From the NCBI GenBank assembly GCA_020543525.1, contig JAHYIO010000009.1, forward strand, positions 310,001 to 374,000: a stretch of 64,000 bases of DNA. The letters are read 5' to 3'. Positions 14,520-51,013 of this stretch are shown here, piece after piece. The stretch is from Coriolopsis trogii (Eukaryota; Basidiomycota; Agaricomycetes; Polyporales; Polyporaceae). The number at the start of each line of letters is the position of its first letter. The first letter of the stretch is position 1. The notes under the pieces were generated by a model. The model saw nothing but the letters and a program-made list of their open reading frames with translations. It searched no databases and was not told the DNA's origin. The position numbers and the translations under genes are program-made.

Positions 14520-14558
14520 TGTTAAGAGACGGATGCTCCGGGAACGAGGAAGAAGAGC

Positions 14559-15116: not shown

Positions 15117-15117
15117 A
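15116..15117. other. Left breakpoint of the inferred 34 kb inversion
   Basis: Minus-strand GST homology ends at 15117, in the middle of the Leu codon of E-F-L. Sequence to the left is unrelated to GST. Confidence 0.8.
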
Positions 15118-15518
15118 GGAACTCGAGGATGACCAGCGACTCGTCGAGCTGGATTGTCGAAGGCTTGGGAGCCTCGTTTTGGCGCAGCTCGGGGCCGCCG
15201 TAAACGAGGTAAGGAACCCAGTACTCCATTTCTCTAGGTTAGCGCTGAGAAGACACGCAGCGTTGCAGGAGAGGTGCGGACCTTTCCGTTCCGCCTGTTG
15301 ACTTTCTGCTCGTACCAGTCGGGCTTGTTGACTATGAGATAAATCCAGATGATGTTGTACTCGACGGCAGCCGAACCCGGTGGGGGAATGGGGATTCCTG
15401 TGGTGGATCGTGTCAACCCGTCAGGAAGAGAAGATGGGACGACCTATGTCAAGAATGTCATAGGCATGGTGGCACGTACAATGGCCGCGTATAGGATGAT
15501 TCGTTCGGTGTGAGGCAT
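15117..15518 (-). pseudogene. GST gene, 5' half only (broken by inversion)
   Basis: Exon 1 starts at 15518 with MPHTERIILYAAI, matching [13 protein letters not shown] of GST4. After an intron the second exon keeps SPFPHRVRL, then lacks about 16 nt near 15366-15374 relative to paralogues, shifting frame, and continues VEYNIIWIYLIVNKPDWYEQ. The next exon gives [20 protein letters not shown] and DESLVILEF. Homology then ends exactly at the second base of the following Leu codon (15117); beyond it the sequence is unrelated and soon stops. The whole C-terminal helical domain is missing here and is found at 49182 onward on the opposite strand. A TATA box remains upstream at 15554-15561. Confidence 0.88.
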
Positions 15519-15553
15519 TTCGGACTGCACGTGGCAGTGGGGGCCGTCCACCG

Positions 15554-15561
15554 TCTATATA
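15554..15561 (-). promoter_or_regulatory. TATA box of the broken GST gene
   Basis: TATATAGA on the minus strand 36 bp upstream of the GST fragment's ATG, as in the promoters of the other GST copies. Confidence 0.5.
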
Positions 15562-16579
15562 CCAGGTCTATATCATGTCTATCAGTTGACTCACCGCGGG
15601 CGATCCGTCAGTAGCGGGAGGATGTGTTCGACTATTCAACATTGGCGCGCCCATGTGTCGAACAGGGTCTTCACCGAGGCTTTGACCGAGCTGAGTGGCG
15701 ACGCTGTGGGAGGTTGCGCAGCTTGTTGCGGATGACTTCGCCATCCGCCTGTACGTCCACCGGGACAACGTGCACCGGTCACGGACATCCGCAGCAATTA
15801 GTATAACATCTCATATCCGATTGACACCGTATCTTGCTGATATCCAGTCGAGCTGTGGCTGGCTGGCGATACGAACCACCATTCCAAGGGACATATGCGC
15901 CATGTATGCTCGATGGCGTCGCTGGTGAAGAGGGGAAATACCCACACTTGCGAGCGTTGGCTAAGAACGCTAAGAGGAACTGTCGCGCGAGATCCATAGG
16001 TGGCGACGATGAGGAGGTCGGGATCTCCTGAGCATGTCATGCCTGTGGATAGTCGTGCAAGAGCACCCGAGGCCTGACAGACTTGTGAGTGCGAGATCAA
16101 CGAGGGCCAATGATCCTGTCAGGCCGTGCATTTACCAACGAGGCTATGGACGCACCATATGTACTTTTGTAGCTTTCGCGATCGAGCGCCAGGGGGACTT
16201 GGTCGGTGGCTGTGACACGCCGATCGCTGCTCAAACCATCTCCCCGGGCCTTGGAACTCCGGCCCACCATATAGCCCGTCCCTGGGAGGCATGCGATCGG
16301 TGGTAGGTCGAAGGCCGAGCTCAGATCGTTGGGGACGTTGGGGATCTACAGTCGGGATCGCGACTCGTGCGCACCGGCACGAGAGACACTACGTCATTCC
16401 CCTGTTTGCGGTAAGCATACAGTGCTACTGACACACCCGACCTGACACCAGCGTGTCGCCAAGGCACGAGAGCGACCTAATTACCCTGTCAAGCTGTCAA
16501 GGTACACGGATCTCTCGCGAGACGAGCGCGCTAGGCAGAATCAGACATGGCAACGAACTCCTTTCGCCTCCGCGGGCCC
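15562..16579. other. Intergenic, no gene recognised
   Basis: Between the broken GST promoter and the 3' end of allantoinase. Short frames on both strands are interrupted by stops and have no recognisable motifs. Confidence 0.4.
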
Positions 16580-18687
16580 CTACAGCAGTTCCCCGGAAGG
16601 CTCTAGACCATCGAACCCTCCATCGAACGCAAGCCTGCCGCGCAGGAACACCTGCTCAACCTTCCCATCGAGAGTGAGGCCCTCGTACGGCGTGAGCTTA
16701 TTCTTGAAGTTCAGCCTCTCCTTCGTGACCTGCACGACCCAGAAGCGTATCGAGTCAACCACACGCACAGACGAGAAGAGACTGCCTGGGCCGTACCGTC
16801 ACCTGTGCCTCGGGGTCCCACACGACCAGATCGGCATCGTACCCGACACCCAGCTGCCCCTTCCTGTCCGCGAGCCCGGCGTGTTTTGCAGTCTGCACGC
16901 ACAGCCAGTTGACGACCTTGTCGATGCCGACTCCGCGCTTGCGCGCCTCGGTCCAGAGCAGACTGAGCCCAAGCCCGAGCGTGCTGATGCCACCCCAGGC
17001 GCTCATGATGTCCCCCTCGTCCATCTTCTTGAGCGAGGCGACGCACGGGCTGTGGTCGCTCACGACGCAGTCGATCGTCCCGTCCAGGAGCGCCTCCCAC
17101 AGCGCCTCGCGGTTCCCGTCCTCCCGGATCGGCGGGCAGCACTTGAACTCGGGCCGGCCGTGCGGGATGTGCTGGGCGGAGAGCGTGAGGTAATGGAAGC
17201 ACGTCTCGACGGTGAGTGGCAGCCCTGAGCCTTTGGCTGCACGGATGAGGGGGAGCGCGTCCGAGGCGGAGAGGTGGACGATGTGCAGCCGGAGAGAGGG
17301 GAACTCTTTGTGCAGGGCGTTGATGAGCGAGATCGCGGCGACCTCGAGCTGCTGCGGTCGGGAGGCGAGGAAGGTGGAATACAGGGTCGGATCCGCAGCT
17401 GCCACGGAGGGAGGGGAACTCGCTGGTGTTTCGAGCTCGGCATGGAAACAAAGAACCGTGCTCGAGTCCTAGTGTAAAGTGTCATACTCTCGAATCTATG
17501 TGCATCACTTCAGCTCTTACCTTCAGTTCATGCATCGCCGAGCGCAGATCGCTCTCGCCCACACATGGAAACTCCTAAGAGAATGATTAACCATCAGGCA
17601 ATAATTGCATGTTAGTTGACTCACGTCGACGCCGCTTTCAATGAGAAAACACTTGAACCCTTTGACCCCAGCGTTCACCAAGGGCTTCAGATGAGTCTAG
17701 ATACAATTGTCTCAGTCAGTCACCATTATGATGAGATCATAATGAGGAAGCACGGAGAACAAGTCCCATTGCTACAGTGATTAATCGGTACGCAGGTCGG
17801 TATCTATGACACACCTCGCTACTCGGGAGACAATATCCGCTACAATCTTACACCTGCCAGGTCTCCGTGCATGTGCACTCCATATATGCTCACCAGGCGG
17901 CACTCATCAAGATGGCCAACATGACCCATGCATGATAGTGGCATGTAGAGAACATCGCGATCTGTGACAAAAGATGGCTGAAAATAGCAATTAACTGCCA
18001 CCGTTCGCGATGTTCTCTGAATATCCCACAGTAGCTCGGCGATGATATCTGCGTTGCCGCGTTCGGGCTATTGAATTGAGACATACCTGGTTTCCTGGGA
18101 TTACGCCGCCCCAGAAGGCGACATGGGTCCAGCATTGCCCTCTGGCTGCGCCGCGCTTCTCTTCGAGGTTGGCGACGGTCGTCGTGGGCGGTATCGAATT
18201 GAGAGGCATGTCCACCAACGTGGTGACGCCACCGGATAGCGCCGCGCGTGTTCCAGTCCAGAAACCTTCCCAGTCTGTTCTCCCAGGCTCGTTCAGGTGA
18301 ACGTGTGCACTGGCGAATGTAACATTAGATCGGTGTGAGACGGCATGCATCAGCAGCATAGATCTTGAAGTTGTTTCCTCTCGATGCCATCCTGGGCGCC
18401 AGATGGCACAAGACAAGATGGCATCCATTCTTGTGTACCAACTATCGTGGCACGAGATATGCATAATGAGATGGAAACACGTACTCGACTATTCCGGGAA
18501 GGATGTACTTGCTTCCAGCGTCTGTCCACTGAGCATCGCCCACATTGGGGAAGTGGCTGCGGGCGGAGGCCTTGTCGAGGATGTCGATGATCTTTCCAGA
18601 GTTGACATCTACGATTACGGTGGCTGGACGAGGCTGTCCATCGCTCAAAATGACGTTTTGACCCGTAAATACATGTGTGGTGGACAT
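16580..18687 (-). CDS. Allantoinase
   Basis: Zinc-dependent cyclic amidohydrolase that opens allantoin to allantoate in purine/ureide nitrogen use. The ATG at 18687 gives [17 protein letters not shown]. Splicing exon 1 to the next exon creates [20 protein letters not shown], with the metal-binding HxH. The following parts give [24 protein letters not shown], where the Lys is the expected carbamylated metal bridge; VLCFHAE and IVHLSA with metal-binding His; and VVSDHSPC with the metal-binding Asp. The C-terminus has [17 protein letters not shown] and [11 protein letters not shown]. About five introns are needed. The one between IPGNQ and LKPLVNAG (about 17698-18089) is near 390 nt, much longer than the others, and contains an inverted repeat. 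GATA motifs cluster upstream of the start. Confidence 0.9.
17947..18018. repeat. 14-bp inverted repeat inside the long allantoinase intron
   Basis: AGAGAACATCGCGA at 17947-17960 is matched by its perfect reverse complement at 18005-18018, with a 44 nt loop. It lies in the unusually long intron of the allantoinase gene. It could form a hairpin in the pre-mRNA or be the remnant of a small inverted-repeat element. Confidence 0.6.
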
Positions 18688-18729
18688 GCTTGCGATGAGT
18701 ATAACCAGGAGAGGCAGGTCGAGGTCGAC

Positions 18730-18787
18730 GATAAGCGGTGTAAAACAAGGTTGAGTTATCTCGGAGGCATCGATAGGATAACCTATC
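18730..18787. promoter_or_regulatory. Cluster of GATA motifs upstream of allantoinase
   Basis: Five GATA cores on either strand fall within 58 bp, starting 43 bp upstream of the ATG. Four match HGATAR (18730, 18756 reverse, 18772, 18784 reverse). AreA/Nit2-type GATA factors switch on allantoin-use genes in fungi when good nitrogen is scarce, so a role in nitrogen control is plausible. Confidence 0.45.
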
Positions 18788-19317
18788 TCTGAGAATGGCC
18801 GATTCGGGAAGTCGTCGTACTTCGCATCTCCACACACGCGAAAGAGGTTCCAGAGGTTGTGGTGCGTTCGCCCATATGCCTGCCAACCCAGTGGGAGTTC
18901 GTGGCAGAAAGACAAGGAGGGCTGATGACCTCAAGGGTTCCCACAGCGAATTATTTTGGCCGATATGTCCGTAAAAGAGCCGGGAGCACAGCATTTAAGG
19001 CCTGTGCAGGGATCACGTCTGTTGATTGAGTTGTGCGGTGCGCAGGCTCTCGCCAGTGCCTCCCACCCACACCCGTAGCCTGTCACCGCCGTGCAGCGCT
19101 GACGACACCGCGCTGCCAATACTCGGAGGCTGCAGGGCACTTGCAGTGCATAATCCTTGTGAAAAATAATGATGAGTACCGCTCCTTTGGCTCACCCCGC
19201 CATCAAACCGCCGGAAATCCAGCCCACCCAGACCCGTCTGGCGTCACCGTCCCTGTTTTCTTTCTCAACCCCCACGTCCTCGACGCCCCCAGTCTCCCCT
19301 GGCCGACCCCACGAGCC
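18788..19317. other. Divergent intergenic region, allantoinase / yippee-like
   Basis: Shared upstream region of two genes on opposite strands. It includes a C-rich leader before the yippee-like ATG. No separate gene recognised. Confidence 0.4.
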
Positions 19318-20248
19318 ATGTCCAAGCTCCCTCTGTCCACAATAGACCACCCGGCGGCATACACCGGCCCACCACGCGTCCTCTTGTGCGCACAATGCTC
19401 GACCCGCATCGCACACACATCTCGTCTAGTTTCCACGGTGAGTGCTGATTCTTGAGAACGCATCGGCGCAGCAGCTGCTCTCTGGCCCGGACCGTATGTT
19501 GACGGATGGCACGCTGCGACTGCAGGCATACCGCGGACATGCAGGTCAAGCTGCCCTCTTTACGGAAACGTGCGTACCCCGCTCAGCTTCACCCGCATGC
19601 ACAATTGTACTCACCTGTTCATCCCGATCTCTCTTTCCAACTTGACCCCTCGTCCTCGTCGATCGGCGGCGTTCACGTACGTCCCACCGTTCCTTCATAT
19701 CCCTCTCGGTCCCTTTCTACGCCACACATACCACCCGCCTCCCTGCCCATGCAATCCCGTTCCGCGTTCCGTATCCTCATCGTCCGCGCAAACACAGACG
19801 AAATATCGCGCTCGACCCACCCTCGATCCTCCTCATGGATTCCGGCGCGTACACGATCCAAGAGTTCATCTGCCAGTCCTGCGAGGCCTACCTCGGCTGG
19901 AAGTTCGTCCGCGCGCACGACGGCCCGGAGCGCTGGAAAGAGGGCCACTACATCCTCGAGCTCGATCTCGTCCTCGAGCACGACGCGCCCCGCTCACCGT
20001 CCTCCGCCTACGCGCCAGACGAAGCGGATGCGAGCCCGGTGGAGACCGACGCGGCGCAGCAGGCGGCCGAGGCCGCGGGCCTGCACAAGCGCACGCTGTC
20101 CTCGGACCCGAGGCCACCGAAGGGCGTCGGCCAGGGGCACCGCAGTTTGCAGGTTGGGGCCGCGAAGCAGCAGAAGACGCCGACACCTGGGCAGCGGAAG
20201 CTCGAGGTGGACGACTATGATGGCGGGCCGTTTTGGAAGCCGAGATGA
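19318..20248 (+). CDS. Yippee-like zinc-binding protein
   Basis: Yippee/Mis18/cereblon-fold protein with two CxxC zinc motifs. Exon 1 starts MSKLPLSTIDHPAAY and has VLLCAQCSTRIAHTSRLVST. Exon 2 gives AYRGHAGQAALFTE. Exon 3 begins after an intron ending in CACAG and reads RNIALDPPSILLMDSGAYTI, then EFICQSCEAYLGWKFVRAHD and EGHYILEL, the classic yippee order. All three exons join in frame. The tail after about residue 110 is a charged, low-complexity extension (EADASPVETDAAQQAAEAAG), making the protein longer than the usual ~120 residues. Its molecular role is poorly defined; yippee proteins are nuclear or centrosomal in animals and effectors of substrate recognition in E3 ligases are related folds. 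Confidence 0.85.
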
Positions 20249-22588
20249 GGCTCGGGCGAGGGACGACGGGGAGGTGCTCTTCTTCTTGGACTTGTGGGTT
20301 TCGTTGCGGTGGGAGCCTGTGCTTCGTGTTCAGGGGCGGGGCGCGGGGGGGAAGGCGAGGAGGGATTCTGATTGCTTACGGTTCGTGCTGCCGCTGCTGC
20401 TATCTTACTGCTAACGACGTATTTGTGTGTATATCGTGTTAATCTGTTTGCCTCGCATTGTTTGTATTCCTTTGCTGTTCAAGTACGCTCACAGGAAGAT
20501 GCTAATTTATAGACGCGCTGCAGAGGACGTGTTTCGGAAGCAACATCGGGGCGAGGTTCTCTCTTCCGCGTGGTTCACACGACTAGGAATCTTCTTATAG
20601 CTTCGAGTGTGAAGCAAGTGTGCTTGCTGTACACTGCGTGGTTTCCTGTGCATGTGTTGCACGCTCTTCTATTGGTTTCATAGAGTACGCTGGTACGTAT
20701 TCCCCAAGGCTCGCCGCCCGCGCACTGTGACATGTTTGCCCAGGTAGTCAGTGGACGATCATGAAGACATACACATATAGAGAGTTGAACCAGCGCCACC
20801 ATTACGTGCATGGGCACGACAGCCCCGCCCGCCACATATCAGGGATGTGACGCGGAGACTCTCACGACCATCGGTGTCGGCGAGCTCGCTCGAGACAAGG
20901 ACACTGATGCAGGTGAACAGGTCCTGACCTGGTAGTGGCTTCCCGACAAGCTCACGAGGCCTGGCGAAGGTCAAAGGTCTCAGACTCGGGGGTTGGGCGG
21001 GGGCGAGCAGGTATGTCATCGGGAGATCACCTCCGCTCTCTCTCTCGCTCCCGCGCCCGGCCGCCGCATACGGTGGTCCGCGAGCTTCCGCGCGATATGG
21101 ATAATGAGCTCTTTGATATGGGCGCGTGGAGCGTGGAGGGCCGGGAGAACCAACATAATTTGCGCGGACGCGCAAGAGAGATTGCGCTCGCGAATCTCGT
21201 CGCGCAACGCCTCAGGGCCGACGCCGGCGACTTTAGGTATGTGGAGGCTTGGAGACTTGGGGACTTGGAGGAGCCCGCTGGAGGCTCGTCACGTTTGACG
21301 ACGCGTTTTTTCCGCTAATTCGCGAATCGGGACTGCGACATTGACGCCTCCACCGGTCGCTATACACATCATGCTGGCAAAGGCTTCCGTCACGTCACGA
21401 TCGGGAGGGTCGGTGTGCGCCTGAGAGAGCGCAGGGGACTCGGGGTACGTACAGTGACAGTACAGTACGCGATGCCAGCCAATGCAGCGCGACTTGCATA
21501 GCACAGCGCGAGGGTCCGAGTCTCACGAAACAAACAGAAAGAGGGCCTTAGCGACGTCACTGGTTGAACGGTGACGGATCGCCAATCGCATCATAGCGCT
21601 ACCGAGCGTGAACAATCTCGTTTGGATGTTGGGTGTTCGGGATGTTGCGGACGTGCTTTGTGTGCGCGCGGTGGGAGCGAGTGATAGCTAGGTACTACGC
21701 ACGTCTTCTAGCGGGGGACTTGGAGTCGGACGATGGCCGAGCGTGAGTGCGTCGACTATGATGTGACCAAGGTGCGACGACGCTACCGAGAGGGGCTTTG
21801 GGAGACTGACGACACGGAGAACCAGATCGGCAAAAGAGGAGCAGAAAAGAACTCGATGGCTTCATGGAGTCTGATGGCCGCGAGTACTTACAGGCCCTGA
21901 CTCCTGAGACAATTGTGAGGCTGGAGTCAAAGGCGGAGCACAGATGATGTCGGCAAAATATCCGGATATGCGTCTCGAACATTTGGATATTGCCAGAGCG
22001 GTCGCAAGAAAGGCCTTGCTGGAGCCAATTGATGCAGAAGGCATGCGCAGAAGTCCATTCATCGTGGCATCAAGCAGAACGCGTGAAACCCTTCGAAGTT
22101 CGCGTCAGTCTGTCCGACTGAATGGAGGACGAACCGGAAGAATAGTGAAAACCCAAAGGCCAATCAAATCTTATCGAGTTTTCCGCGTACGAGCGAACGA
22201 GCGAAGCGTCCATCAGCAGGCGTACTGTAGACGACAGGCGTTGGCATCCCGGTGCCACCTTGGAGTGCGGGATGACCGGAAGCTCAGGACGAACTTACGG
22301 CAGCCTGAGGACACGAACGTCAACGTATGAAGGAATGTTTACCGTTTTTCCTCGCCGAGCACGCTCAAACGAGCTTCAAGGAGGCGGTAGCACGAGGCCG
22401 AGGAACAAGGCAAAAGCGAGTGTATGGTTTAAAGGTTGTTCCCATCCGTGCTAACCCCATAAGAACATGTTATGTATGCTTTTCAAACAGGCCCATTGCC
22501 AAAAGGGTACCCGTGACGCTTACGTAATCGTTCCCGCCCCGACGCGTCGCGACGCGCTGGACGTACGGTTTCGTCCCGTACCTCCTCG
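20249..22588. other. 2.3 kb intergenic, no gene recognised
   Basis: GC-rich sequence with several overlapping short frames (for example around 20935-21318, plus strand), none with recognisable domains, plausible exons or codon pattern like the neighbours. A CT-rich run lies near 21037-21056. It contains the 3' flank of the yippee-like gene and the promoter of the roadblock gene. Confidence 0.4.
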
Positions 22589-23150
22589 ATGCTGGCGACC
22601 CAGACAATGGCAGACCCACATGCTTCGACGACGACCGCCGCGCAGACCTTTGTGACTCCTCCGGAGATCGAACAGACCCTCACGCTCCTCACATCGCACC
22701 GATCTGTCCTTGGCTATATGCTGCTCTCCAGAGGCCAGCCTGTGACCATCATCCGGCACTCCGGCGTCGTCTTCGAGGGCGAGCAGGGGAAGAAGTACGC
22801 GAGCGCGATTGCGCGGATAGTGCACAGCGTGCAGACGGGCCTGGAGGACGTCAGCGGCGGTCATAACGACGGGGTAAGCCGTCTCCCGTCCCATTTCCCA
22901 TTACCCATCCCCCCGAGACCCCCGTGCCGAGCCTGCTCATATCGTTCGATGTGCGCGTCCAGGATGATATCCGGTTCATGAGGATACGGACGAAGCGGCA
23001 CGAAATTATGATCTCCCCAGGTGCGTCAGCCTGTCCACGGGAAGCCCGGTGTATGGCGCTCCTCGGACGTGATTTTGACCGAGTGCGTGTCCTTTGGCAG
23101 ACGAACGCTATTTGCTCGCCGTCTTGCACGACCCGGACGTGAAGTCATGA
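22589..23150 (+). CDS. Roadblock/LC7 dynein light chain
   Basis: Homodimeric dynein light chain of the roadblock/LC7 fold, which binds dynein intermediate chain for cargo transport. Three exons fit: the first ends SVQTGLEDVSGGHNDG after TPPEIEQTLTLLTSHRSVLG and GVVFEGEQGKKYASAIA; the second is DDIRFMRIRTKRHEIMISP; the third is DERYLLAVLHDPDVKS. This is the full roadblock layout (helix, strands with a central LRIR-like motif, final strand). Two in-frame starts exist, at 22589 and 22607. The length (about 127 residues) is slightly above the animal ~96 because of the N-terminal extension. Confidence 0.88.
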
Positions 23151-24726
23151 ATCATTGCCTGTTTTCGCTAGATGCGATCGACGAGCTTTTAGGACCCGCC
23201 TCAGACAGCCTACAGGCTTCCGTGCGCCCCCTCTCGTTCTGACCAAATATGTTTCGATACGTCTGGTAACACCACTGTGTAGCATTCCATTCAGATCATG
23301 ATATATATCGCAAGCTTCAACGCCGTGAACGACAGCAAGGACGGACTCGGCTGTCCGCTGGATGGACATCGGGTTCGTAGGCATTGGGACGGAGCGCTGA
23401 TGGCCGTCGAGTGTAGAGAGAGCACGATGCAACCGGTCTACTGTGGACCCGGCTTGTTTGAGTCGGGGCGCATCAATCGACTTAGGAGCGCCACATGAAG
23501 CACTCGATGATAGAGGGCGAACGGTTCCTGAACGGCGAGAGAGCCCAAGAACGCTCTGCGGGTCGTCGGCAGCCATGATGGACTCTCGACGAGCCATTGC
23601 GGGGGCGGTCGATCGCAGGAGAGGGACGACTGCCGGCGGGGGCGCTGTTGCGCGTTCGGTATGTGCTCGGGCAGCGGCACGGGACCTGGAGGAGACGCAG
23701 ACGAGGAGCGCGACAGGAGATGGGCGAGACGAGGCGGGGGCGGGCGCCAGCCGAGGCCGGGTGCGGTGGCGTAAATTGGTGGCACACGTGAGGGGTTGAA
23801 CGGTAGTTGAGGACGTCTGAAGGAGGCCGATCGACCGAGTGCATCGAGCCAGAGACTGTGGAGGCATGACAGATGTCAGTGGCCTCGAGAGAGAGAGAGA
23901 AAGAGGGATCGGTACCGGTGCGCAGGAGGAGGGCGACCCCTGCGCGCCACCGCCACCTGAGCTGACCGCTGCGAGGGAAGATGGCGCAACGGCGGCCTGG
24001 AGAGCGTCGGGAGAAGAGTGAGATGGTGCGCGTTTGGACTAGGGCATGGCGGATGTTGTGGACGTGGATGGCATGATGTCTCTCGGCGCCTGTCTTGTTC
24101 TGCGGAACCTTTCTGGATGCGCGGGTGAGGTCAAGCCAAATTTTGCCGTGGGGTCTGTTCCCCCGGGCCTGCCCTGCCTTAGACCGTCATGGGCGCCCCC
24201 GCGGCCTCGGCTGTCGTCCTCGTTCGAGGGTCGGGCAGGGCGTGGGCAGGATGGGGGCCGCGTGCTTTGTTGTGCGCACGAGCAAGGCTTGGAATGGGCG
24301 AAAGAGGGGATAAAGGAGGACGAGGGCGTTGCGCGGCGGGCGATCTCGATGGCTGGGCCAGGGTGCGCCACAAAAGAGGTCTGTGATAGGTTCTGTTCAT
24401 CAAGGGTGAAGAACATTCCTTTCCCGATTGGATTGGTGGAGATGGGATCTGCTCGGCGCCTCGCTGCCCTCGCCTCGCCGTCTGACGCCAGGCCCAATGC
24501 GCTGCGAGAGCTGAGTGGTGCCCTTGCTCAGGCTCACACTCAGCTCGCACTCAGCCCAGCCTAGTCCCAGCCATGGCCTGCCTCCAATCGCGCTTTGAAC
24601 GCCAACCGATGCATCCTCATATAAGTCCTCCTCCTCCCGCCCTCCTCCTCCCGCCCTTCCCTTCGCATCCGTACCCGTCCCTCTCCACTCCTCCCCCTCC
24701 CCGCCACCGAACAGCCCGACGCCAGC
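23151..24726. other. 1.6 kb upstream region of the Zn2Cys6 gene
   Basis: Several long frames on both strands come from high GC content and have no domains. A CCTCC-rich pyrimidine tract at about 24624-24665 lies just before the transcription factor start and is probably its 5' leader. No gene recognised. Confidence 0.4.
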
Positions 24727-34700: not shown

Positions 34701-34796
34701 CGTCTGCTCCGAACTGAGCGCGCTGCAGCCTGAGCCTCGCGTCTGCCGTGAACCTTGTCTTCCTCACCCTCTCCCTCGTCGTCCACGGCATGCTCA
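31767..34796. other. 3 kb region without recognised genes
   Basis: No exon with family features on either strand. The longest frame (32315-33130, minus) is a GC-driven frame with no domain. The end nearest 34.7 kb should hold the promoter of the EH-domain-like gene. Confidence 0.4.
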
Positions 34797-37838: not shown

Positions 37839-38851
37839 CTACTCCTTCTGGGGCGGTATGACGAGGCCCTGCGCGATCACTCCCGTTTCACGGACTCGCT
37901 GGAGCCTAGCCTTGAACTTCGTCACGTTCGCCTCCTGAGCACAAGACGAGAGCCATCAACACCTGTCTCCACGCAAAGAAAGGCAGTGCAAAATCGAAAG
38001 TTGACTGACCTCGTCCCAAGTCTTTGCCATGCTCGGCCGCTGCATGTTGTCCTCCAGATACTTCAAGATGCGGCCAAAGCGCTGCTCGTCGTGCAGTCCT
38101 GCGTATGCCTCCTTCTGGACCGCCTCGTCGTGCATGCCAAGGCGGTGCTTGAGGAGCGTGTCGAGCCTGAGGAGGAACGGCACGAAAGCGGCGTCCGCGA
38201 TCGACCACTCGTCCCCAAGAGCGTACTTGCCCTCGGGAGCGAGAAGCGCTTGCATGCCTTCCACGACAGCGAGGAGCGCGGCCGGGGGCATGCCCATGAA
38301 TAAGAAGCCGACGAAGGCGGGGATGAACTTGGTCTCGACGACATGCGCGAACAGGCGCGCTTTCACGCGCAGCACGGGGTCGGACGGAAGGAGGACGGAG
38401 TTGGGGAAGAGGTCCGCGAGGAACTGGAGGATGATGAGCGACTCTGGGAAGCCGGCTGCGTCGGGGGAGGGTGATTCGTCCTCGTGGAGCTCTGGGCCGC
38501 CGTATACCATGTAAGGGACCTGTTGACACGATACATAAGTCGGGGTGACAGTGGGTGGAGGGAATGTCGCACCGTGGCCTCAACGGGGTACACCTTCTTC
38601 TCAAACCACTCTTGTTTGTTGAGGAGATCGATCCATATGGTCTTGTAGGGGATCTTTGCCTCTTCGAGGGCGAGGGGGATCTGACAACATGTTAGCATGG
38701 AGATTCCGCTGCCGTAGGGAGCGAAGACACTCACGCGATGAGAGAAAGGCGAGTCCTTGCAGTGGGGGCTTCGTGTTAGTACAGCCTCACGAGTAGAGTT
38801 GAGAATACGCACCATTGCGGCGTAAAGGGTGATTCTCTTGATCTCGGACAT
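37839..38851 (-). CDS. GST1: glutathione S-transferase-like protein
   Basis: Cytosolic GST with a thioredoxin-like N-domain and a helical C-domain, which conjugates or transfers glutathione. Exons read [60 protein letters not shown] with ESLIILQFLADLFPNS; then the C-domain with [20 protein letters not shown] and RPSMAKTWDE. The last exon, EANVTKFKARLQRVRETGV, ends at 37839. The position that carries the catalytic Cys in omega-class GSTs (C-P-F) is Ser here (D-S-P-F), as in the other copies. The subclass is unresolved; it looks nearest to fungal omega/Ure2p-type forms. It is intact, with a TATA box upstream. Confidence 0.85.
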
Positions 38852-39667
38852 GGCTAAGCTTGAAGATTGTAACACGTAGAGTTGTGATGTGAAGCAGCTA
38901 TCGACCTCCTCATTGTGGTATGCTTATATACTTTTCGAGAGCTTGTTACACAGCTGAACGACGCTGTGACTACTTTCGGAGTCCTAGTAGCGGCGTTGCT
39001 GCACTGAGATGGATGCCAGAGGATGTCGTAGGCTCCCCGGCACCTCCAAAAGCTCGCAACTACATGAAACAGTCACACATGTGCCGCAGGTTCGGCAGGT
39101 AAGTTGAGACGTACATTGACGATTCACTCTGTGCCAAGGCCCTGGTAGGCGGCTTCGGGATCGCTGCGGATGTGTGAATTTGATTGCCCCTGCAGCAGTA
39201 AACAAGGCCGCTATGTGACGTACACTACGGCAAGCCCTGTCGAAGAGCACCTCGGGCGGGCTTTGTAAGTTCGCAGTTCTCTACTTTGATCTGGAGTTTC
39301 GGAACACCGCTCATGTGGCGGCAGCTTTGGGAGTCCAGGTCACCTGTTGAGAGTCTGAGCAGTTGCAAAAACTGTGCGCAGAAATTGGTACTACAAGTTC
39401 CGTCAAGAGAGACGACCCGAGGTCGATAAGTATCGCTCAGCGCATTGTGATGATGGTCAAGGACAGGATGGAACGAGCGCTGGTGACGCCCCACACATCT
39501 GCTAGATCTGGGATCTGGGATCGAGATTTGGTATGCAACTGCTGCGTAGTAGACGCGCACAGCCAGCAGATTTGCTATCTTAGTATCTATCTGCTGTCGC
39601 ATTCTGTTTTGCTCCTGCTGTCCCACACTCTCGAAGCCGTCTATCTCCCACCGCCGCATGCTACGTC
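38852..39667. other. Divergent intergenic region, GST1 / DNA glycosylase
   Basis: Contains TATATAAG on the minus strand at 38923-38930, 72 bp upstream of GST1. No additional gene recognised. Confidence 0.45.
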
Positions 39668-41268
39668 ATGTCTGACTCTGAGGAGAAGTATCGTCCCATT
39701 GCCACCGACGAGGCCTGTGCTTCTACATCTGTCCCTACCCCGACTCAGAAAATACGCGAGAAGATCCTTGCGTTCTCTTTTGATGAAAGTCTAACACCCA
39801 CACTTCGTCGTTCACCGAGGAAACCCAAACCCTACATCAAGTTCGAAGAGGTCGAATCCGTCTTACCCACTTTGCCCCATGACCGGCCCCCTCGCCCGAC
39901 GACCAAGAAGCGACCGTCATCACGCAACGACAACTTTATCTTGAAGAGAGAAGACTTGAAGAGAGAAGAAGACGAAGAAGAAGGAAGTCCTAAGAAGAAG
40001 GCTCGTTCAATCAAACAGGAGAGCCCCAAGAAGGCGCAGTTCGCCCCTCCCGAGAAGTACGCGCATCTGAAAGAGCTCCCTGACCACCTCGGCCAAGCTC
40101 CGGACATGCTTGACAGTGAGTACCGTTTAGATTTCTCCGAACTGTTACGTCTGTGGACACCTGTGGGTGGCATCGATCTTGATGGTCTTTCCGTATCATA
40201 CCGCAATGGCAGACGCTGACACGTAACCCAGTACTGTTCTGTGGGATCAAGTATGTAATGCGCCACACGTTCTGAACATCCCTAACGTTTTTTCGTAGTC
40301 CTGGTCAAGAGTCAGCGACCGTAGGACATCACTTTGCTCATCGCTCGAACCATTTCTGGCGCTGTTTGCACGGCTCGGGTAGGTACTCCCGCACCCACCC
40401 CCAGAGTCATTACCGAGATGTCTCCCTACCCCATAGGGCTCACAGACAGGCTCTTGAACGCGAGCGAAGACGGCACCATACCTGAGATGTACAACCTCGG
40501 ACTGGTGCGTTCCCACTCGCTTCTGCGCGTCATGCCTCTGAGACATACTACAGACAAACCTTGTCGATAGACCTAGCGCACAGGTATGTACACACACGTC
40601 CGCATATCTCCCAAAACTCAGAACCACGTCTCGATAGGCAGCCGAGCTCGATAGCTCTGAGTTCACAGCCGGCGTTCCCGCCCTGTTACGGAAGATCGTC
40701 TCAACCCGGCCCCGCATTGTATGCTTCGTCGGCAAGGAGATTTGGGAGAAGTTCATTCGCGCCACTGTTTCCAACCCAGACGCCACCCAATTGACGCCAA
40801 CCAAGATTGAAGTCAAAACGGAGGTCGTTCTTACGTCAGACGCCTCTGGGTCCACTCCCGCTGCCACCACGGGCGTGACGATCAAGGACATGACGAAACG
40901 GGCGACTACGACCAGAAGAAGACAGCCTAAGGTGAAGATTGTTGGCGGTCTCCAGCAGTTCAAGATCGTTCACGACGCTTGTACGTTCAAAGCGTTCATC
41001 ACCTTCTACGCGATGAATTGATCATCTATGCAGCTGACGTCATTGTCCGTGAAACGCTGTTTTTCGCAGCGACCAGCACCTCAGCCAGAGTCAGCCAATA
41101 CCAAGTATGCCACATCGCATTTTCAGGTGCATGCACAGCTAACCCGCGGTATTCCGGTAGCTGTCCGACAAAGTAGAGCAATTCTCGCAATTGAAGGAGC
41201 ATTTGGCTGAGCTCAAGGCCAGAACTCTTGATACATCTTCGATGATCGTCATTCCGAGCTCCATTTGA
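39668..41268 (+). CDS. Mismatch-specific uracil/thymine DNA glycosylase (TDG/Thp1/Mug)
   Basis: Nuclear base-excision repair enzyme that removes uracil or thymine from G:U and G:T mispairs. The first exon encodes a charged tail (LTPTLRRSPRKPKPYIKFEE, SPKKKARSIKQESPKKAQ) that resembles the DNA-scanning tail of TDG. The core follows: MLDILFCGINPGQESA, with the catalytic Asn completed across an intron; GHHFAHRSNHFWRCLHGSG; LNASEDGTIPEMYNLGLTNL; VDRPSAQ; and PRIVCFVGKEIWEKF. After a charged insert (SGSTPAATTGVTIKDMTKRA) the last motif is FFAATSTSARVSQYQ, where relatives have PSTS; the C-terminus ends SMIVIPSSI. Eight or so introns fit with no frame break. Confidence 0.88.
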
Positions 41269-42327
41269 GCCATCGCCCAATGGAGCAAGTAACATTTTCT
41301 TGGAACATCTTGGACAAAATGAAGCCCTCAGATGTGAACGAGGCTTAATCATTGCGACCTAGACTGCATCAGTCGGACATCTTGGTATTGAGACATCGAA
41401 CAGCCCAACGAACTGCGTACATTGAGGATGTCGGGCCAAATATCCTGGCCTCCGAGAGTCGCATATGCTGACTGTGAGAGTGATCTGGACTACTCTTCTG
41501 GCGGTCCTCTGACGCATCGTTCTAGGTGCTCATCGGCTCAAGCGTACGAAGGATATTGCTTGTTCATCCGAGATCCGGCCAACACGACAGGTTACATGGA
41601 CCCGGCTTGAAGTACCTTCTGTATGCTCCGTTGCATTTACTGCCGGTCGGAGAGTTGCACTCCCGTCTTGGGTCGACGACGTGTTACACACAATCTGCAT
41701 ATACGAATGTCGATCCGATCATCTTTCTTCGCATGCACTAAGCGGCTACCAGGCATTCCGTCTCAGACGAATTCCACTCGCTGTCTCTCCGCCAGTTCAG
41801 ATCGGCAACGACATCCGTCCTCTCGATCGGGTAACGACGAGTTCGGAACCGAAGTCGGGATTGCATATGCGCATGTCGGTCCTAAAGGTCAAGCTACGGG
41901 CCGGCGGTCGAGAGTCATATACTCTAGTCCTCATCGCAACGTGCAGAGCGGACCCGTCTTGATCATGTGCCTAAATTGGCAAGTATCGTCGCGGATTGGC
42001 CTTCTCTGAGTAAAGATTCCGAGCGAGGCTGGTCCGATTCATGACGGTGAATGTGCAAGTCCTGCATGCGCCTTTGCTCATCCGATTTCCTACTGGGGAA
42101 TGCTGGACTTTGCGAGATTCTGAAGGACGACAAGTAGGGGGTCGAAAGGTATATAAGGGTACCGTTCTGCTGCCATCTCTCCTCACCAAATCATCCTCTC
42201 ATCCATCTGTCGAGCTAGTCTCACAACCGCAGAACATCTCTTGCACACTCTTCTACTGCATCACAACCACCAACCACCAACCACCAACCACCAACCACCA
42301 ACCCACCAACCCACCCAATCAGCAACA
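41269..42327. other. Upstream region of the secreted protein gene
   Basis: No gene recognised at 41.3-42.1 kb. A TATA box (TATATAAG, 42150-42157) sits about 180 bp before the secreted protein start, and a CAACCAC-type repeat fills much of the 5' leader. Confidence 0.5.
42263..42312 (+). repeat. CAAC/ACC repeat in 5' leader
   Basis: Tandem units close to ACCACCA repeated about seven times just before the ATG of the secreted protein. The leader would be C/A-rich and unstructured, which often goes with high translation in fungi. Confidence 0.7.
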
Positions 42328-43799
42328 ATGATGTTCAACACCAAGTTCGTTACCCTTGCCGTCGTCGTCTACGCTGCGTGCGCTAGCGTCCACGCTCTTC
42401 CTTACAACGGGCACTCCAGCTGTGAGTAGTATACCATCCTTTCTGCCTCTTGCGTTACAGGGGTTGACATATCCCTCTAGCTGTGAGCTCTAGGTCGTAC
42501 AACCCCTACTCCGCATACTCGACCTACAAGGCATACTCGGGCATCCCTGTCGCTGCCCGCGATGTTGAACAACCCGCCTTGAGCACCCCAAGTGCACCGC
42601 TTCCCTCTGCGCCGTCGGCCCCGTCTGTGTCGGCCCCGTCCGCACCTTCGGTTCCGGCCCCATCTGCACCAGCAGTCGCGGCTCCGTCTGCGCCCGCACC
42701 GGATGCCCCGTCTGCACCCTCAACTGAGACTCCGTCGGTTCCGTCTGCGCCCTCGACCGAGGCACCTTCGGCCCCATCTGCACCATCTACCGAGGTCCCG
42801 TCTGCACCCTCCATCGTGGCCCCGTCCGCATCGGTCCCGGCAAGTCCCGCGCCTCTCGACGGCCCCCCTTCGTCGCTCCCCGTCCCCGTGAGCACCAACA
42901 CCAACGTCCAAGCTTCCTCCGTTGTCAAGCGCTTCGCCGAAGCACCGGTGCCTATCTCGCAGTCGGCATCGCTCCCAACCACCGAGCCTGTGTCGCTACC
43001 CACTACCCCGGCGGCGCCCGTCCCCACCGAGTCCGCGTCGCTCCCAATCAACCCTACGGAGTCCGGTGTGCCTAGCACTCCATCTGCCGAGCTCCCCATC
43101 TCGCAGTCGGCTTCGCTCCCTACTACACCTTCGGTCGCGAACCCCTCTGCACCGGCGGTGCCCTCCGCCCCGGTGTCGGCGCCCGAATTCTTGGCCTACG
43201 ATATGTCTACGCCTGAAGCACCCTCAACGCCTTCAACCCCGTCGATGTTGCCCTCGGCCCCCGCCGCGTCGCTCCCAACGCCTGCGGCTCCTTCGGCCCC
43301 GTCGGACGTCTCTGCACCCTCTGCGCCCTCCACTCCCTCGGTGCCTGCCTTCGCGCCTGCAGTCCCCTCTGCCGCGCCTTCAGCACCCGCGGTTGCGCCC
43401 TCTGTTCCCTCGGACTCGCTTCCCATCTCTTCAAGCTCGCTTCCGGTTCCCACCGACTCGTCGGTGATGCCGCCTGCTCCCTCGGCCCCGGTCGCGCCTC
43501 AGGCCAAGGCTGAGGTCCCCTCAAACACGCCCGCCGCGCCCTCAGCCCCCGTCGCGCCCTCGGTCCCTGTTGCGCCCTCGGTTCCCGCCGCTCCTTCCGC
43601 CCCGGTCTCGCCTTCCGCCCCGGTCTCGCCTGAAGTCCCCTCGAGCGCCCCCGTTGCGCTCCCCACTACAATCACCACGACCTTCACTGAGACCAAGACC
43701 GCGACCGTCACGACCATCGACACCCCGAGCGCCGGCGTCCCGACGATGCCCGCGCAGCTCAAGAGGGGCGACTACCACCCCCATGGTCTTCCTCAGTAG
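42328..43799 (+). CDS. Secreted Ala/Ser/Pro-rich low-complexity protein with Lys-Arg sites
   Basis: Exon 1 encodes a signal peptide (MMFNTKFVTLAVVVYAACAS followed by VHALP). After an intron (about 42421-42480) the protein reads VSSRSYNPYSAYSTYKAYSG, then a long stretch of PSAPSAPS-type repeats with interspersed ISQSASLPTT modules. Codons stay in frame to the stop at 43799. Two dibasic Lys-Arg sites occur, one in the middle (VVKRFAEAPVP) and one near the end (QLKRGDYHPHGLPQ), which a Kex2-type protease could cut; the second would release a 10-residue C-terminal peptide. No GPI signal is seen. It is likely O-mannosylated and extracellular, perhaps cell-wall related. No family recognised. The strong TATA box and repeat leader suggest high expression. 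Confidence 0.8.
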
Positions 43800-44229
43800 T
43801 TTGGAGACGACGATAGGAATCGGCGGAACACCATGCTTCGAAGATTGAAAAGATCCTGGCGATCACTGTTTGTAACGATATTGTAACATACCACTATAGA
43901 AAACCTACTCTGAAACAACGTCATGCAAAATTTACCAGACTGCTGCGTGCCATTATCAGTGATGTTAAGGAAGTTAAACTCGATGGCAGCTTGCCCTCCC
44001 AGTCGGAGTGAAGTGTGGCTGTGCCCCTCTGCTCGGGGATTTTCGGACGCGTGTGCTGCTGGCAGGATCTCCGTAACTTGTCCCACACCCTCTGCAAAGT
44101 CCGTCCGGAAAGCTGAATTCGGAAGTTAGAAAGCGATATCAAGCCTGCATACTCACATGTTAGCGTGAGCCTCAGCATATTGAAGGGACTCGGAGTTGTA
44201 CGGTACAACCACATCTCAACCTCTTGCAT
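43793..44229 (-). CDS. Possible small gene, unknown function
   Basis: A minus-strand frame starts at 44229, 26 bp after a TATA-like TATAAGG, and joins across a 46 nt GT-AG intron to VGQVTEILPAAHASENP and LGGQAAIEFNFLNITDNG, ending at 43793. About 130 residues. Its 3' end overlaps the stop region of the secreted protein gene by 7 bp. The spliced reading is smooth, but I recognise no family and cannot exclude chance. Confidence 0.3.
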
Positions 44230-44729
44230 TTGCGACCCACTGCAACGTTAACCTGCCCTTATAGAGACTCCGCAGAGTGCACGACCAAATCGGCGCTGAC
44301 TCTCTTGAACTTCACAGGTTGAATATATATGTAGGTAACCCACGGCCTAGAGTCGCTGTCTTATCGGACACGCTACCCGTGACCGGCTTCGAAGTTGTCG
44401 AAGCTAACCCTGCTAATTGCATTCAAGCTTCGCTGTCAGCCATCGCAGCATACCATGATGGAGAGTCTGACTTCCGACAACAGCTCGGGGGTACCCTCTG
44501 GAGTCGTTTGAGATACCAGGTGTTAGGATAGGTGCGTGTCGCCTGCGTCCGAGTCACACTGCCAGACACCCTTGATCATCCGGTGTCTGACTTTTGCCTG
44601 GCGGCGATTGAAACGTGACATAACCTACTTTCGCCATGAGGCTTTCGCTGTCATATCAAGATACCTGCGGTCTGGGATTATGGCACATAAAGGCCGTGCC
44701 CGCGGATGTGGGAAGACTCTCACACCACG
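44230..44729. other. Intergenic, promoter of ICMT3
   Basis: CATAAAGG at 44686-44693, about 40 bp before the ICMT3 start, is a weak TATA-like site. No gene recognised. Confidence 0.4.
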
Positions 44730-45549
44730 ATGCCCTTCCTCATCGCTCCCATACTGACGACCTCTGCCCTCAAGATCCCGCTCCTGCTGTCTTATACAGT
44801 ATGCGCCTACCATGGATTGACCCCTCCGACCAAGGCTGCACCACCCAAAGCCATCGAGAAGTTCAATAAGCCCGACGTACTGAGCAAAACAATGCATATC
44901 CAACTAGCTTCCATGGCTTCGGTCAAGGTATGCTCGCTGCTCTACTCCTCGTCCGCGTAGGATGCTCATACAGTCCTGAAATCTTGGTTCGATGTAGTAC
45001 TTGTTGTTAGGCACCGCCGTCGCCGAAACGGTTTTACTCCTCGCCCAGCAATTCCCGTCGACCAAGATCTCCGCCGAGATCTCTACATATCTCTTTCCCT
45101 CGCGATCTCCTGCCTCGCTCCGACTCACCACCCTGTCTCTAACCGGATGTCTGCTTGGCACCGTTGGTGGAGCCCTGCGCATATGGTGCCACCGCACTCT
45201 CGGCCGGCATTTCACGTGGCAGGTCGCTATCGTCGACGACCACCGACTCGTGACCGCGGGCCCGTACGCAACTGTGCGCCACCCGGGCTACACGGCCTGG
45301 ACGGCCCTAGTCGTGGGCACCTTCATGTACATCCTCAGCCCGGGGTCGTACTTTGTCGAGTCGGGGATGTGGGATCATGTTCTAGGGAAAGCGGCTGTGG
45401 CCACAGCCGTCACGTATATGTCTTGGGTGACGTGCGCTTTGCTTTCCAGAGTGCCGAAGGAAGATCAGGTGCTTCAGAGGGAATACGGGGCTCAGTGGGA
45501 GGAGTGGGCGAAGAAGACTCCTTATCGGCTTATTCCCTACGTGTACTGA
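44730..45549 (+). CDS. ICMT3: isoprenylcysteine carboxyl methyltransferase-like membrane protein
   Basis: Two exons (44730-44927, 44998-45549), about 249 residues. Exon 1 reads MPFLIAPILTTSALKIPLLL and YHGLTPP; exon 2 begins YLLLGTAVAE and holds RIWCHRTLGRHFTWQVAI, TAGPYATVRHPGYTAW and EDQVLQREYGAQWEEWAKK, ending RLIPYVY. It is the most divergent member of the array in its N-terminal half but keeps the methyltransferase motifs. First gene of a four-gene tandem array on this strand. Confidence 0.85.
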
Positions 45550-45809
45550 GGAGTTGGTCCTTGTCTTTGAAGGTACGTACACGTCCTTCGGGTTGTCCCA
45601 CAACTATTAATCCGATCGTTCGGGCAGATTGATGGGTTGCGACCTGTACTTGTAATTTAGGTTGCTTGATATACACAGAATATGCTCTCAAGCCAAGGCT
45701 TAGGCGACGTTACTTACGGCCGCCGATACGGTGTCTTCTGGCTTGTGCTGACTATTGTTCAGACATTGATCACACAGTGATGTACCCGTGGGTAAGACAT
45801 ACGCGCGAG

Positions 45810-45816
45810 TATAAAG
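45810..45816 (+). promoter_or_regulatory. TATA box of ICMT4
   Basis: TATAAAG, 58 bp before the chosen ICMT4 start at 45868. The in-frame ATGs at 45835 and 45841 lie too close to this box to be likely starts. Confidence 0.55.
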
Positions 45817-45867
45817 CCACAGCTGGAAGGGTAGATGGAGATGGAAAACCTTTCCTCGCCGTCACCA

Positions 45868-46677
45868 ATGCCTGCCAAAGTTCTGCTCAAGATCCCACTC
45901 CTGTTGTCGCTTATGAAGTACACGTATCACGGAATGACGCCTCCTATGCAACCTCCCCGCCAGAACGAGAAAGAGCGGGCTCCTGTCCCTGACTTCCTCG
46001 CAGGCATGCCGGGCGTGCAACGAGTTGTGATTGGCGTTATAAAGGTGAGTGCTGACTTGACACGCCATCGATACTCCTTACAAGTGAGTATTGTTTGTTT
46101 GTGGCAGTACATCTTCTGTGGACTCGCTCTCGCAGAAGCCCTTATTCTGTTGGTCGAGAAGCTCCTGCCCGCATCACTCTCTTCCCGCATACTCGACGCT
46201 CTTTTCCTCGTCTTGCAACCCGCCTCCGCTGCATCTGCTCCGGTACTGCAGCTCACTGCGGTCTCCGCGCTTGGCTGCGTGCTGGGCACGCTTGGAGGGC
46301 TGGGCCGAAGATGGTGTCATCGCACCCTTGGCCGGTTCTTCACTTGGGAGGTCGCCGTGCGCGACGGACACCAGCTCGTCACGTCCGGGCCTTACGCGAT
46401 CGTGCGCCACCCGAGCTATTCGGCCTGGTACCTCGTCATGGCAGGGAACTTCATGCTGATGTTCAGCCGCGGATCCCTCTTCGTCGAGTCGGGATGTGCG
46501 CAGAGCAGCCTCGGGCAGGCTATCGCGGCCTGCTCCGTAGTTTATATGGGGTATGTCAGCGGGGGTATGTTGTTCAGGACGGGCACGGAGGACAAACTGT
46601 TGAGAAAGGAATTCGGAGCGCAATGGGAGCATTGGGCGAAAAGGACTCGGTACCGACTGATCCCGTGGGTGTATTGA
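45868..46677 (+). CDS. ICMT4: isoprenylcysteine carboxyl methyltransferase-like membrane protein
   Basis: Two exons (45868-46044, 46108-46677), about 248 residues. The start MPAKVLLKIPLLL aligns with MPTLALLKVPLLL of ICMT5 and respects TATA spacing. The 63 nt intron is a multiple of three without stops, so reading through it would insert 21 residues. Motifs: YHGMTPP, GRRWCHRTLGRFFTWEVAV, TSGPYAIVRHPSYSAWY, EDKLLRKEFGAQWEHWAKR, RLIPWVY. The protein is intact and closest to ICMT5. Confidence 0.86.
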   Translation: MPAKVLLKIPLLLSLMKYTYHGMTPPMQPPRQNEKERAPVPDFLAGMPGVQRVVIGVIKVSADLTRHRYSLQVSIVCLWQYIFCGLALAEALILLVEKLLPASLSSRILDALFLVLQPASAASAPVLQLTAVSALGCVLGTLGGLGRRWCHRTLGRFFTWEVAVRDGHQLVTSGPYAIVRHPSYSAWYLVMAGNFMLMFSRGSLFVESGCAQSSLGQAIAACSVVYMGYVSGGMLFRTGTEDKLLRKEFGAQWEHWAKRTRYRLIPWVY

Positions 46678-46892
46678 GGGGTGGCGTATTAGCAGCTGAC
46701 TTGATCAGTTAGGGGTAGAGTGTAATGTGACTTGTATGGTGAACGGTTGGGAATATGTGATGCCTCTTAGGGCTATGACGTCGACAACTGGGAGCTTCCC
46801 TAGCCTTGGTAGAATTCACGTGAATCTTCAGTACATTCAACTTATCCTACATATAGGGCCGGCTGTACCTCCGAGTGCCTCTCCTGTTTGCC

Positions 46893-47691
46893 ATGCCCAC
46901 ATTAGCTCTGCTCAAAGTACCGCTCCTGCTATGTCTCGCGAAATACACGTACCATGGGATGACGTCTCCGACGCTACCGCCTCGTCCTGAGGAGAAGAAG
47001 CGCGTTACCGCGCCAGACTTCCTCGCGAGCATGCCGGTCGTGCACCAGTTCGCCGTCGTAATCGCAAAAGTGAGCGTTTGCGGCGACACTCCATCGATTC
47101 TGTGTACTCACGGACGTCAACAGTATATATTCTGCGGCCTCGCTGCCACAGAAGCTCTGACACTCGCCCTGCACCAACTCCCATCCTCTTTGCTCAGCTC
47201 TCGCGTGCTCGCGGCTCTTCCTCCCATCTTACAATCAACCTTCGCGGCAGGAGCATCTCTCCGCCTAACGCCCGTATCCGCACTCGGCTGCGTGCTGGGC
47301 ATACTTGGAGGACTCTCTCGGGTATGGTGCTACCGTACGCTGGGACGTTTCTTCACCTACGAGGTCGCCGTACGCGATGGGCACAAGCTCGTCACCTCTG
47401 GACCATACGCCATCGTGCGGCACCCCAGCTACACGGCGTCCTACGTCCTCATGGTGGGGATCTTCATGTTGTTGTTCAGCCGCGGGTCGCTCTTCGTCGA
47501 ATCGGGCTTGGCGCAGACCAAACTCGGGGCAAGCTGTCGCGGCCTCCTTGGTCTCGTACATGGGATGGATTCTCTGGGGCATGACGTATCGCACGAGGAC
47601 GGAGGATGAGCTCCTGAAGAAGGAGTTTGGAGCTCAGTGGGACGAGTGGGCGAAGAGAACGCCTTACCGATTGCTTCCATTTGTGTATTGA
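46893..47691 (+). pseudogene. ICMT5: ICMT-like gene with single-base frameshift
   Basis: Two exons (46893-47069, 47124-47691) align along their whole length with ICMT4: MPTLALLKVPLLLCLAKYTY; RVWCYRTLGRFFTYEVAV; TSGPYAIVRHPSYTASY. At 47526-47529 a run of four G replaces the three expected, shifting frame after SGLAQTKLG. The second frame then continues the family sequence (QAVAASLVSYMGW, then EDELLKKEFGAQWDEWAKR) to the usual RLLPFVY stop. As read, the protein loses the C-terminal substrate and cofactor-binding motif and is probably inactive. A sequencing error in the G run is the main alternative. CATATAG at 46850-46856 is a plausible TATA box. Confidence 0.82.
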
Positions 47692-48163
47692 TCGTCGGAC
47701 TCTCTCTCATATTTGTGCCGGCAGCGCTGGGCTTCGACTAATCGTGCACACGGTCTGTTGTGGACGTAACCAATGACAGTGAAAGTCCATTCCGCCCATC
47801 ATACAGACTGTCAACCGCTGTCAAGTTGACTTTGAATTGTCTTACATGTTCAGTGGTCGGTACGACGGCTTTCCTCCATGGGACGTGACTAAGTCGGCAA
47901 CTTTCACCGCCGACTTCATTTCCCTGATGATGAATTGCCAGTATGCCAGCCCTTCAGACGCCTCATGACCGCGTACCTGCCTCAGGCTGGGGCGTGTTTA
48001 ACTTGTCACCAGACCATGCTCACGCGAACACACACCGTATACCCGATGTATCGCCTCTCGGCGCACGAATGTAACACTCCGACCCAACTTCTGTACCTAT
48101 AAATCGGGATGAGTCCTAGGTCATAATACTTTGCGACACACCTGCCTGGATGTGCATTGCCCC
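47692..48163. other. Intergenic, promoter of ICMT6
   Basis: No gene recognised. TATAAAT at 48098-48104 lies 60 bp before the ICMT6 start. Confidence 0.5.
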
Positions 48164-48981
48164 ATGTTCCCTCTCTTCGCCGCCACTCCGCTACTCAAGG
48201 TCCCGATTCTGCTCGGCCATGCAATATGCACGTACCATGGCATGACTCCACCAAAGGTGGCTCCTCTCCCTAAGGATAGGTTGACCACGGGCCCGGACTT
48301 TCTCAGATGGATGCCTGCATTGCAGAAGGCGGGGACAAGGTTGGCGAAGGTACGCAAGAACCTTAAAGTTTAAGTCTCTTCTCGCGTTGATGGGACCCGT
48401 TTTGACCATGGTCACAGGTTGTCCTGATCAGTCTTTCTCTCTCCGAAATTGGTGTCCTCGTCGCCCAGCAATCACCTGCAAACTCTTTCCTGCGTCATCA
48501 CATATCAGCGGCACTCGCCGTCGCTCATCTCGATATCGACACTGTAGCTGTACGACTCACCTCCATGGCCCCCCTCGGCTGTGTCCTGGGCATCGCCGGC
48601 GGGCTAATACGTGTGTGGTGCCATCGCACGCTTGGGAAATTCTTCACATGGGAGATTGGCGTGCGGGATGACCACGCCCTCGTCACCATCGGACCGTACA
48701 GCATCGTGCGACACCCGAGCTACGCAGGGTGGCTAGCGCTCTTCGGCGGAAACCTTCTGCTCTTGTGGGGAAGTGGCTCGTTTGCACAGGAATCGGGGAT
48801 CTTGAAGTCTGCGTTGGGCAAAATCGTTGCAGGTGTGGTGACAGCGCACCTGACGTGGGTCACAGCAGGGCTGCTGTTTAGGACAAAGACGGAAGACGAG
48901 ATGCTGCGAAGAGAGTTTGGGACGCAATGGGAGCAGTGGGCTGCCCAGACGCGGTACAGGGTTGTACCATTTGTATATTGA
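48164..48981 (+). CDS. ICMT6: isoprenylcysteine carboxyl methyltransferase-like membrane protein
   Basis: Two exons (48164-48349, 48418-48981), about 249 residues. Exon 1 reads MFPLFAATPLLKVPILLGHA and YHGMTPPKVAP; exon 2 begins VVLISLSLSEIGVLVAQQSP and holds RVWCHRTLGKFFTWEIGV, TIGPYSIVRHPSYAGW and EDEMLRREFGTQWEQWAAQ, ending RVVPFVY. Intact. The start at 48164 aligns with the other copies; an in-frame ATG at 48131 is less likely. Last gene of the array before the inversion breakpoint. Confidence 0.85.
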
Positions 48982-49180
48982 TTATGAGCGGAGTGAGAGG
49001 GTTTCGATGTTGCCCCATATGCTCCGATTATCGTAGATCGCAGTAGACGTTGGGGCTGGAATGCTACACGAGGGGTGAGTATTGCTGTTGAGTAGGGTAT
49101 CAGTTCAGCCGCACATGAGCAGAACTCCAGGCTGCGTTCTTACAGTACTCGCTGAGCGGGGATGATAGACCGACAGGGAG

Positions 49181-49182
49181 AC
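49181..49182. other. Right breakpoint of the inferred 34 kb inversion
   Basis: Plus-strand GST homology begins at 49182 with the third base of the same Leu codon followed by A-D-V-L. Sequence to the left is unrelated to GST. Confidence 0.8.
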
Positions 49183-49224
49183 GCCGACGTCTTGCCCTCC
49201 GCATGGCTTATGCCCTCCTCTCCC

Positions 49225-50983: not shown

Positions 50984-51013
50984 ATGGAGCTGACGGTCCG
51001 CGCGAAGAACTGA

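Follow-up and report, generated by a model that had tools for sequence, protein, structure and literature searches.

How did the two halves of one omega-class GST gene come to lie on opposite strands, at the two ends of a stretch of some 34 kb? The gene, here called GSTx, lies in a window of 64,000 nucleotides (C9:310001-374000), the whole stretch of DNA analysed, on a 489-kb contig of a 38.8-Mb assembly of 39 contigs. A preliminary description of this DNA had proposed that positions 15117-49181 were inverted, breaking the GST gene with no base missing or repeated at the rejoined codons and dividing two gene arrays. Two features point to this segment as inverted, without assigning it a strand: the exact abutment of the GST halves taken from both of its ends, and an ICMT clade split across it.

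The 5′ half of GSTx (15117-15518, minus strand) begins with an ATG at 15518, ends at 15117, and comprises exons 1 and 2 and the first 101 nt of exon 3. The 3′ half (49182-51013, plus strand, its end inferred by eye) comprises the rest of exon 3 and the last exon. In whole-genome DNA searches, each half recovered itself and, from the neighboring array, two GSTs. These searches placed base 15117, the last of the 5′ half, at window position 54433 in GST3 and 52750 in GST2, while the first aligned base of the 3′ half fell at 52751 in GST2 (from 49182) and 56289 in GST4 (from 49183); pairwise alignment matched 49182 with 54434 of GST3. The halves abut at 52750|52751 in GST2 and at 54433|54434 in GST3, bearing out the proposed coordinates and the exact junction. 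By our estimate, such an exact abutment would arise by chance about once in 500 cases, if each end could fall anywhere in the 513-nt exon with equal chance, regardless of the other.

Similarity falls at once on both sides of the junction. In ungapped comparisons of 60 nt on each side against four paralogues, the 5′ half matched at 37-49 of 60 positions before the break and at 11-16 of 60 beyond it; on the right side, matches rose from 14-18 of 60 ahead of the break to 32-41 of 60 past it. When gaps were penalized stiffly, only GST4 gave a local alignment of the 3′ half starting at 49183; those for GST1-3 started at 49232-49402, and a 7-nt duplication near 49220 disturbs these alignments. Loose gap costs let the alignment of the 5′ half to GST1 and GST4 cross the break by a few bases, with a gap in between. 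Neither junction region was found a second time in the assembly, where only one arrangement was seen, and the left flank had a single genome match, itself.

Phylogenetic analysis, with the GSTx reading frames corrected by eye before the halves were entered, used 53 rows (48 of 77 GST matches, the four window GSTs, and GSTx). Treed separately, each half grouped exclusively with GST2, GST3, and GST4 (5′ half, 100/100; 3′ half, 98/95), as did the joined sequence (100/99), and the two halves are therefore parts of one gene. The clade remained exclusive (100/99) when eleven further GST matches of the same genome, leaving out those on C33 and C39, were added; the array member nearest to GSTx differed between trees. 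Among the 77 matches, joined GSTx was up to 54% identical to Polyporaceae GSTs, best to those of Lentinus and Cerioporus. Judged from these sequences, GSTx, GST2, GST3, and GST4 make up a tandem array peculiar to this lineage, and GSTx, at its head, has been cut. GST4 matched PDB entry 6f70 over residues 1-234 (E = 9.1e-67), placing it with omega-class enzymes. Fungal omega-class GSTs of solved structure include 6f70, 6f43, and 6gib, from Trametes versicolor; GSTx, to which GST4 is sister, differs from them in being a broken gene within a tandem array confined to its lineage.

GST1 (37839-38851, minus strand), which has an open reading frame, belongs to a different omega-GST lineage; it was sister to an Earliella protein (100/100; 100/98 in the enlarged tree). 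Because it lies outside the array clade, its strand is uninformative about the array. The preliminary description had counted the turning of GST1 to the plus strand, like GST2-4, as a sign of inversion; this sign falls away, as GST1 is of another lineage and GST strands on the contig are mixed. Besides the two GSTx halves, the contig carries ten GST matches (6 plus and 4 minus), six of which belong to another subfamily. Elsewhere in the genome, a protein-identical GST exon occurs at C17:6079-6591, on a 19.7-kb contig, and at C20:1064564-1065076, possibly as an uncollapsed haplotig or a recent duplication.

The ICMT genes provide a marker independent of the GST junction. All six in the window scored above the Pfam PF04140 cut-off, and four were confirmed by a second Pfam scan. 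ICMT1 (7550-8333) and ICMT2 (13714-14528), the latter adjoining the left breakpoint, are on the minus strand; ICMT3 (44736-45546), ICMT4 (45868-46674), ICMT5 (46866-47690), and ICMT6 (48161-48978), the last adjoining the right breakpoint, are on the plus strand. In a tree of 47 of the best 120 of 277 matches, ICMT1, ICMT2, ICMT4, and ICMT5 formed an exclusive clade (100/97), which stayed exclusive (98/95) after twelve other ICMT loci of the same genome were added; its nearest relatives among the matches treed were genes of Earliella, Daedaleopsis, Polyporus arcularius, and Lentinus. Two members of the clade, ICMT1 and ICMT2, are now outside the segment, on its left, and the other two, ICMT4 and ICMT5, are within its right end, on the opposite strand and some 31-39 kb away. 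Flipping the segment reunites this clade.

The places and strands of the ICMT genes had thus been read correctly, and the clade split across the break is a stronger sign than the common strand originally invoked, but ICMT3 and ICMT6 come from other lineages. ICMT6 grouped with Lentinus and Polyporus genes (99/94; 95/93 in the enlarged tree), ICMT3 fell outside the ICMT1/2/4/5 clade, and both are interspersed with its members. Uniformity of ICMT strand was rejected as a rule, and the clade test used instead, in view of a second cluster at C36:2077358-2114569, where four genes of another subfamily are on mixed strands (2 plus, 2 minus); the genome holds about 18 ICMT loci. Two related genes sit between ICMT1 and ICMT2 (9191-9760 and 12133-13342, minus), the right one with an alpha/beta-hydrolase domain, so that the ICMT array is interrupted in its left part. 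A scan of viral_contigs returned no relatives of ICMT4.

The window is bounded on the left by a condensin (Cnd3) subunit gene (1180-3586, plus) and on the right by a BRR2-like spliceosomal helicase gene (57068-63999, plus) that runs to the window end. The first recognized gene inside the left breakpoint, past the GSTx half, is an allantoinase (16580-18690, minus, ends approximate), up to 83% identical to proteins of Trametes, Cubamyces, Pilatotrama, and Lentinus among the best 120 of 7998 matches; by protein similarity, this DNA is placed in Polyporaceae. An apparent intron of about 390 nt (17697-18086, minus) separates two conserved allantoinase exons, as read by eye. Of the other genes that had been assigned to the segment, a Mdm35-type UPF0203 protein was recovered, together with a calcineurin-like phosphoesterase consistent with Vps29. 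As to the DNA glycosylase, none of the five genome matches to the HhH-GPD family, the one glycosylase family searched, lies in the window. When 58 ORFs and two conceptual proteins were scanned against Pfam, many of the ORFs showed no domain.

The array that was cut shows decay. GST2 (52348-53339, plus) has a TGA in exon 2, and GST3 (54054-55031, plus) has a TAG in exon 2 and a 1-nt frameshift near 54812. The paralogues had been described as intact, which is true of GST1 and GST4 (55875-56897, plus), both open, but not of GST2 and GST3; from the premature stops of the latter two it follows that the cut gene was a member of a decaying array. Both GSTx halves are frameshifted. Exon 2 has about 16 nt fewer than in GST3, the 7 nt extra near 49220 form a tandem duplication, and intron 2 lacks an AG at the expected acceptor, with another AG 6 nt upstream. 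The last exon is interrupted by a young 1.24-kb DNA element with terminal inverted repeats (TIR; 49742-50986, strand not assigned), of which a 98% identical copy lies at C5:509742-510983. Scans of two plus-strand ORFs of the element found no Pfam domain; partial older relatives (71-86%) occur on C3, C28, and C36, and weaker ones elsewhere.

The 216 codons of GSTx outside the frameshifts contain no stop, which limits neutral change since the gene lost constraint to less than about 0.115 substitutions per site, at 95% and with every substitution taken as equally likely. Because of this lack of stops, the break should be no older than that bound, unless one half retained function. This detoxification gene, one member of the array, was already, or soon became, dispensable.

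Collectively, these observations make it very probable that the last large change at this locus was an inversion of 15117-49181 through two clean breaks, with bases neither lost nor gained within the gene. The halves are exactly complementary, of opposite orientation, and from the same gene, and the ICMT1/2/4/5 clade is rejoined by the same flip. Of three signs originally held to agree, the codon-exact junction and the ICMT genes, now as a clade, stand, and the strand of GST1 does not. One break would have fallen between ICMT2 and ICMT6 and the other inside exon 3 of GSTx, where the ends would have been rejoined without loss or gain of a base. The route was probably plain end-joining, and the event was most likely recent.

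Clean end-joining is the likeliest route because no strong repeat links the two ends and no simple repeats lie near the breaks. Inversion by ectopic recombination between repeats was considered and rejected. The only inverted matches between the breakpoint regions were those of ICMT2 with ICMT5 and ICMT6 (66-70% over 73-415 nt) and of GSTx exons with GST2 (80-85% over 27-46 nt). Across the whole window, inverted matches at E = 1e-10 or better were gene paralogues, at 68-74% except for one at 85% over 61 nt. Only matches of 14-22 nt linked the sequence upstream of GSTx, the left flank, or the stretch below ICMT6 with the other side, and no simple repeats (at least 5 units of 1-3 bases, at least 10 nt) occurred within 500 bp of either break.

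Which order is older is a separate matter, on which the preliminary description had called the present order necessarily derived. This holds for the last step: GSTx should have been whole just before that event, and hence the order uninverted. Beyond that step, the linkage in relatives resembles the present order at the right junction, and the uninverted order may itself be derived. Gene order in relatives was judged only from locus tags and listed contig sizes among the protein matches listed, and among these no uninverted order was seen. Two P. arcularius genes, GST P0008 from the group sister to the array and ICMT P0199 from that sister to ICMT1/2/4/5, are both listed on a contig of 41359. 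A separate pair of such sister genes, GST P0062 and ICMT P0225, shares a listed contig size of 10911. The uninverted order would, by arithmetic, put such an ICMT and GST about 29-31 kb apart with the allantoinase between them, but the allantoinases of P. arcularius (on a contig listed as 39851) and Cerioporus (77417) are on contigs other than those of these GSTs. In Daedaleopsis nitida, the allantoinase and ICMT P0201 are on a same-sized contig and GST P0007 on another, and in Lentinus tigrinus, ICMT, GST, and allantoinase are all on a contig of 441719 bases, their order not given. In Ganoderma sinense, allantoinase GSI_09654 stands between GSTs GSI_09640 and 09641 to one side and GSTs 09662 and 09667 to the other, an arrangement that, taken by itself, suits the uninverted order; in Ganoderma adspersum, the tags (ICMT 004578, allantoinase 004583, GSTs 004595 and 004598) fit neither order simply and the uninverted one poorly. 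The Ganoderma gene orders are weak evidence because most of these GSTs form a separate clade.

The apparent ICMT-GST linkage in relatives, which points the other way at one junction, and the interspersed ICMT3 and ICMT6 both tell against a single inversion. The linkage leaves room for a longer history, possible though rather doubtful, in which an earlier inversion brought the ICMT end to the condensin side, where the ICMTs underwent duplication before a second, recent inversion restored the older orientation. The ends of the second inversion would have differed slightly from those of the first, leaving ICMT1, ICMT2, and the 5′ half of GSTx as footprints and cutting GSTx. Such a history would account for ICMT1-2 at the far end and suits an ICMT beside a gene of the GST2-4 type on the 41359 contig of P. 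arcularius and on the 10911 contig, the allantoinases of P. arcularius and Cerioporus lying on contigs other than those of these GSTs. Against it, this linkage is deduced from equal listed contig sizes rather than read directly, and the Ganoderma tags count against it, those of G. adspersum fitting neither order simply and those of G. sinense, by themselves, suiting the uninverted one. Since this history contains the inversion of 15117-49181 as its last step, our confidence in the two overlaps.

The present order would also result if only the 5′ piece of GSTx had moved, inverted, from the ICMT6 side to the ICMT2 side, the 34 kb never having turned. This keeps an ICMT beside a GST, as apparently in relatives, but three breaks would be required, and the division of the ICMT1/2/4/5 clade at that very junction would go without explanation; we consider it unlikely. 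Least probable is an assembly artefact. The protein-identical GST exon on C17 and C20 suggests that the assembly may hold leftover duplicates, but no strong repeat between the breakpoint regions could have misled the assembler, both GSTx halves carry further damage, and the ICMT duplicates agree with an inversion. An inversion of 15117-49181 as the last step thus remains our preferred reading.

Intrachromosomal inversions in fungi are familiar from mesosynteny, described for filamentous ascomycetes (Hane 2011, PMC3219968); that 2011 survey reports no mesosynteny in basidiomycetes, and a paper on 18 Dothideomycetes (PMC3516569) reports simple repeats near breakpoints. As in the systems outlined there (PMC3219968, PMC3516569), an inversion within one chromosome has probably reshuffled local gene order here. 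In contrast to those ascomycetes, the present case concerns a basidiomycete, a cut gene pins one breakpoint to a single base, and simple repeats of at least 5 units and 10 nt are absent within 500 bp of either break. A literature search found no papers naming this locus, which is not a claim of its absence from print.

Events of this kind are ordinary, and the one at this locus is well resolved. A cut member of a tandem array yields, from a single genome, the position of a breakpoint, the direction of the most recent change, and an upper limit on its age. If the segment has indeed flipped at least twice, a basidiomycete would here carry a local segment prone to repeated inversion, and breakpoint reuse in polypores would be directly testable by gene order in a few relatives.
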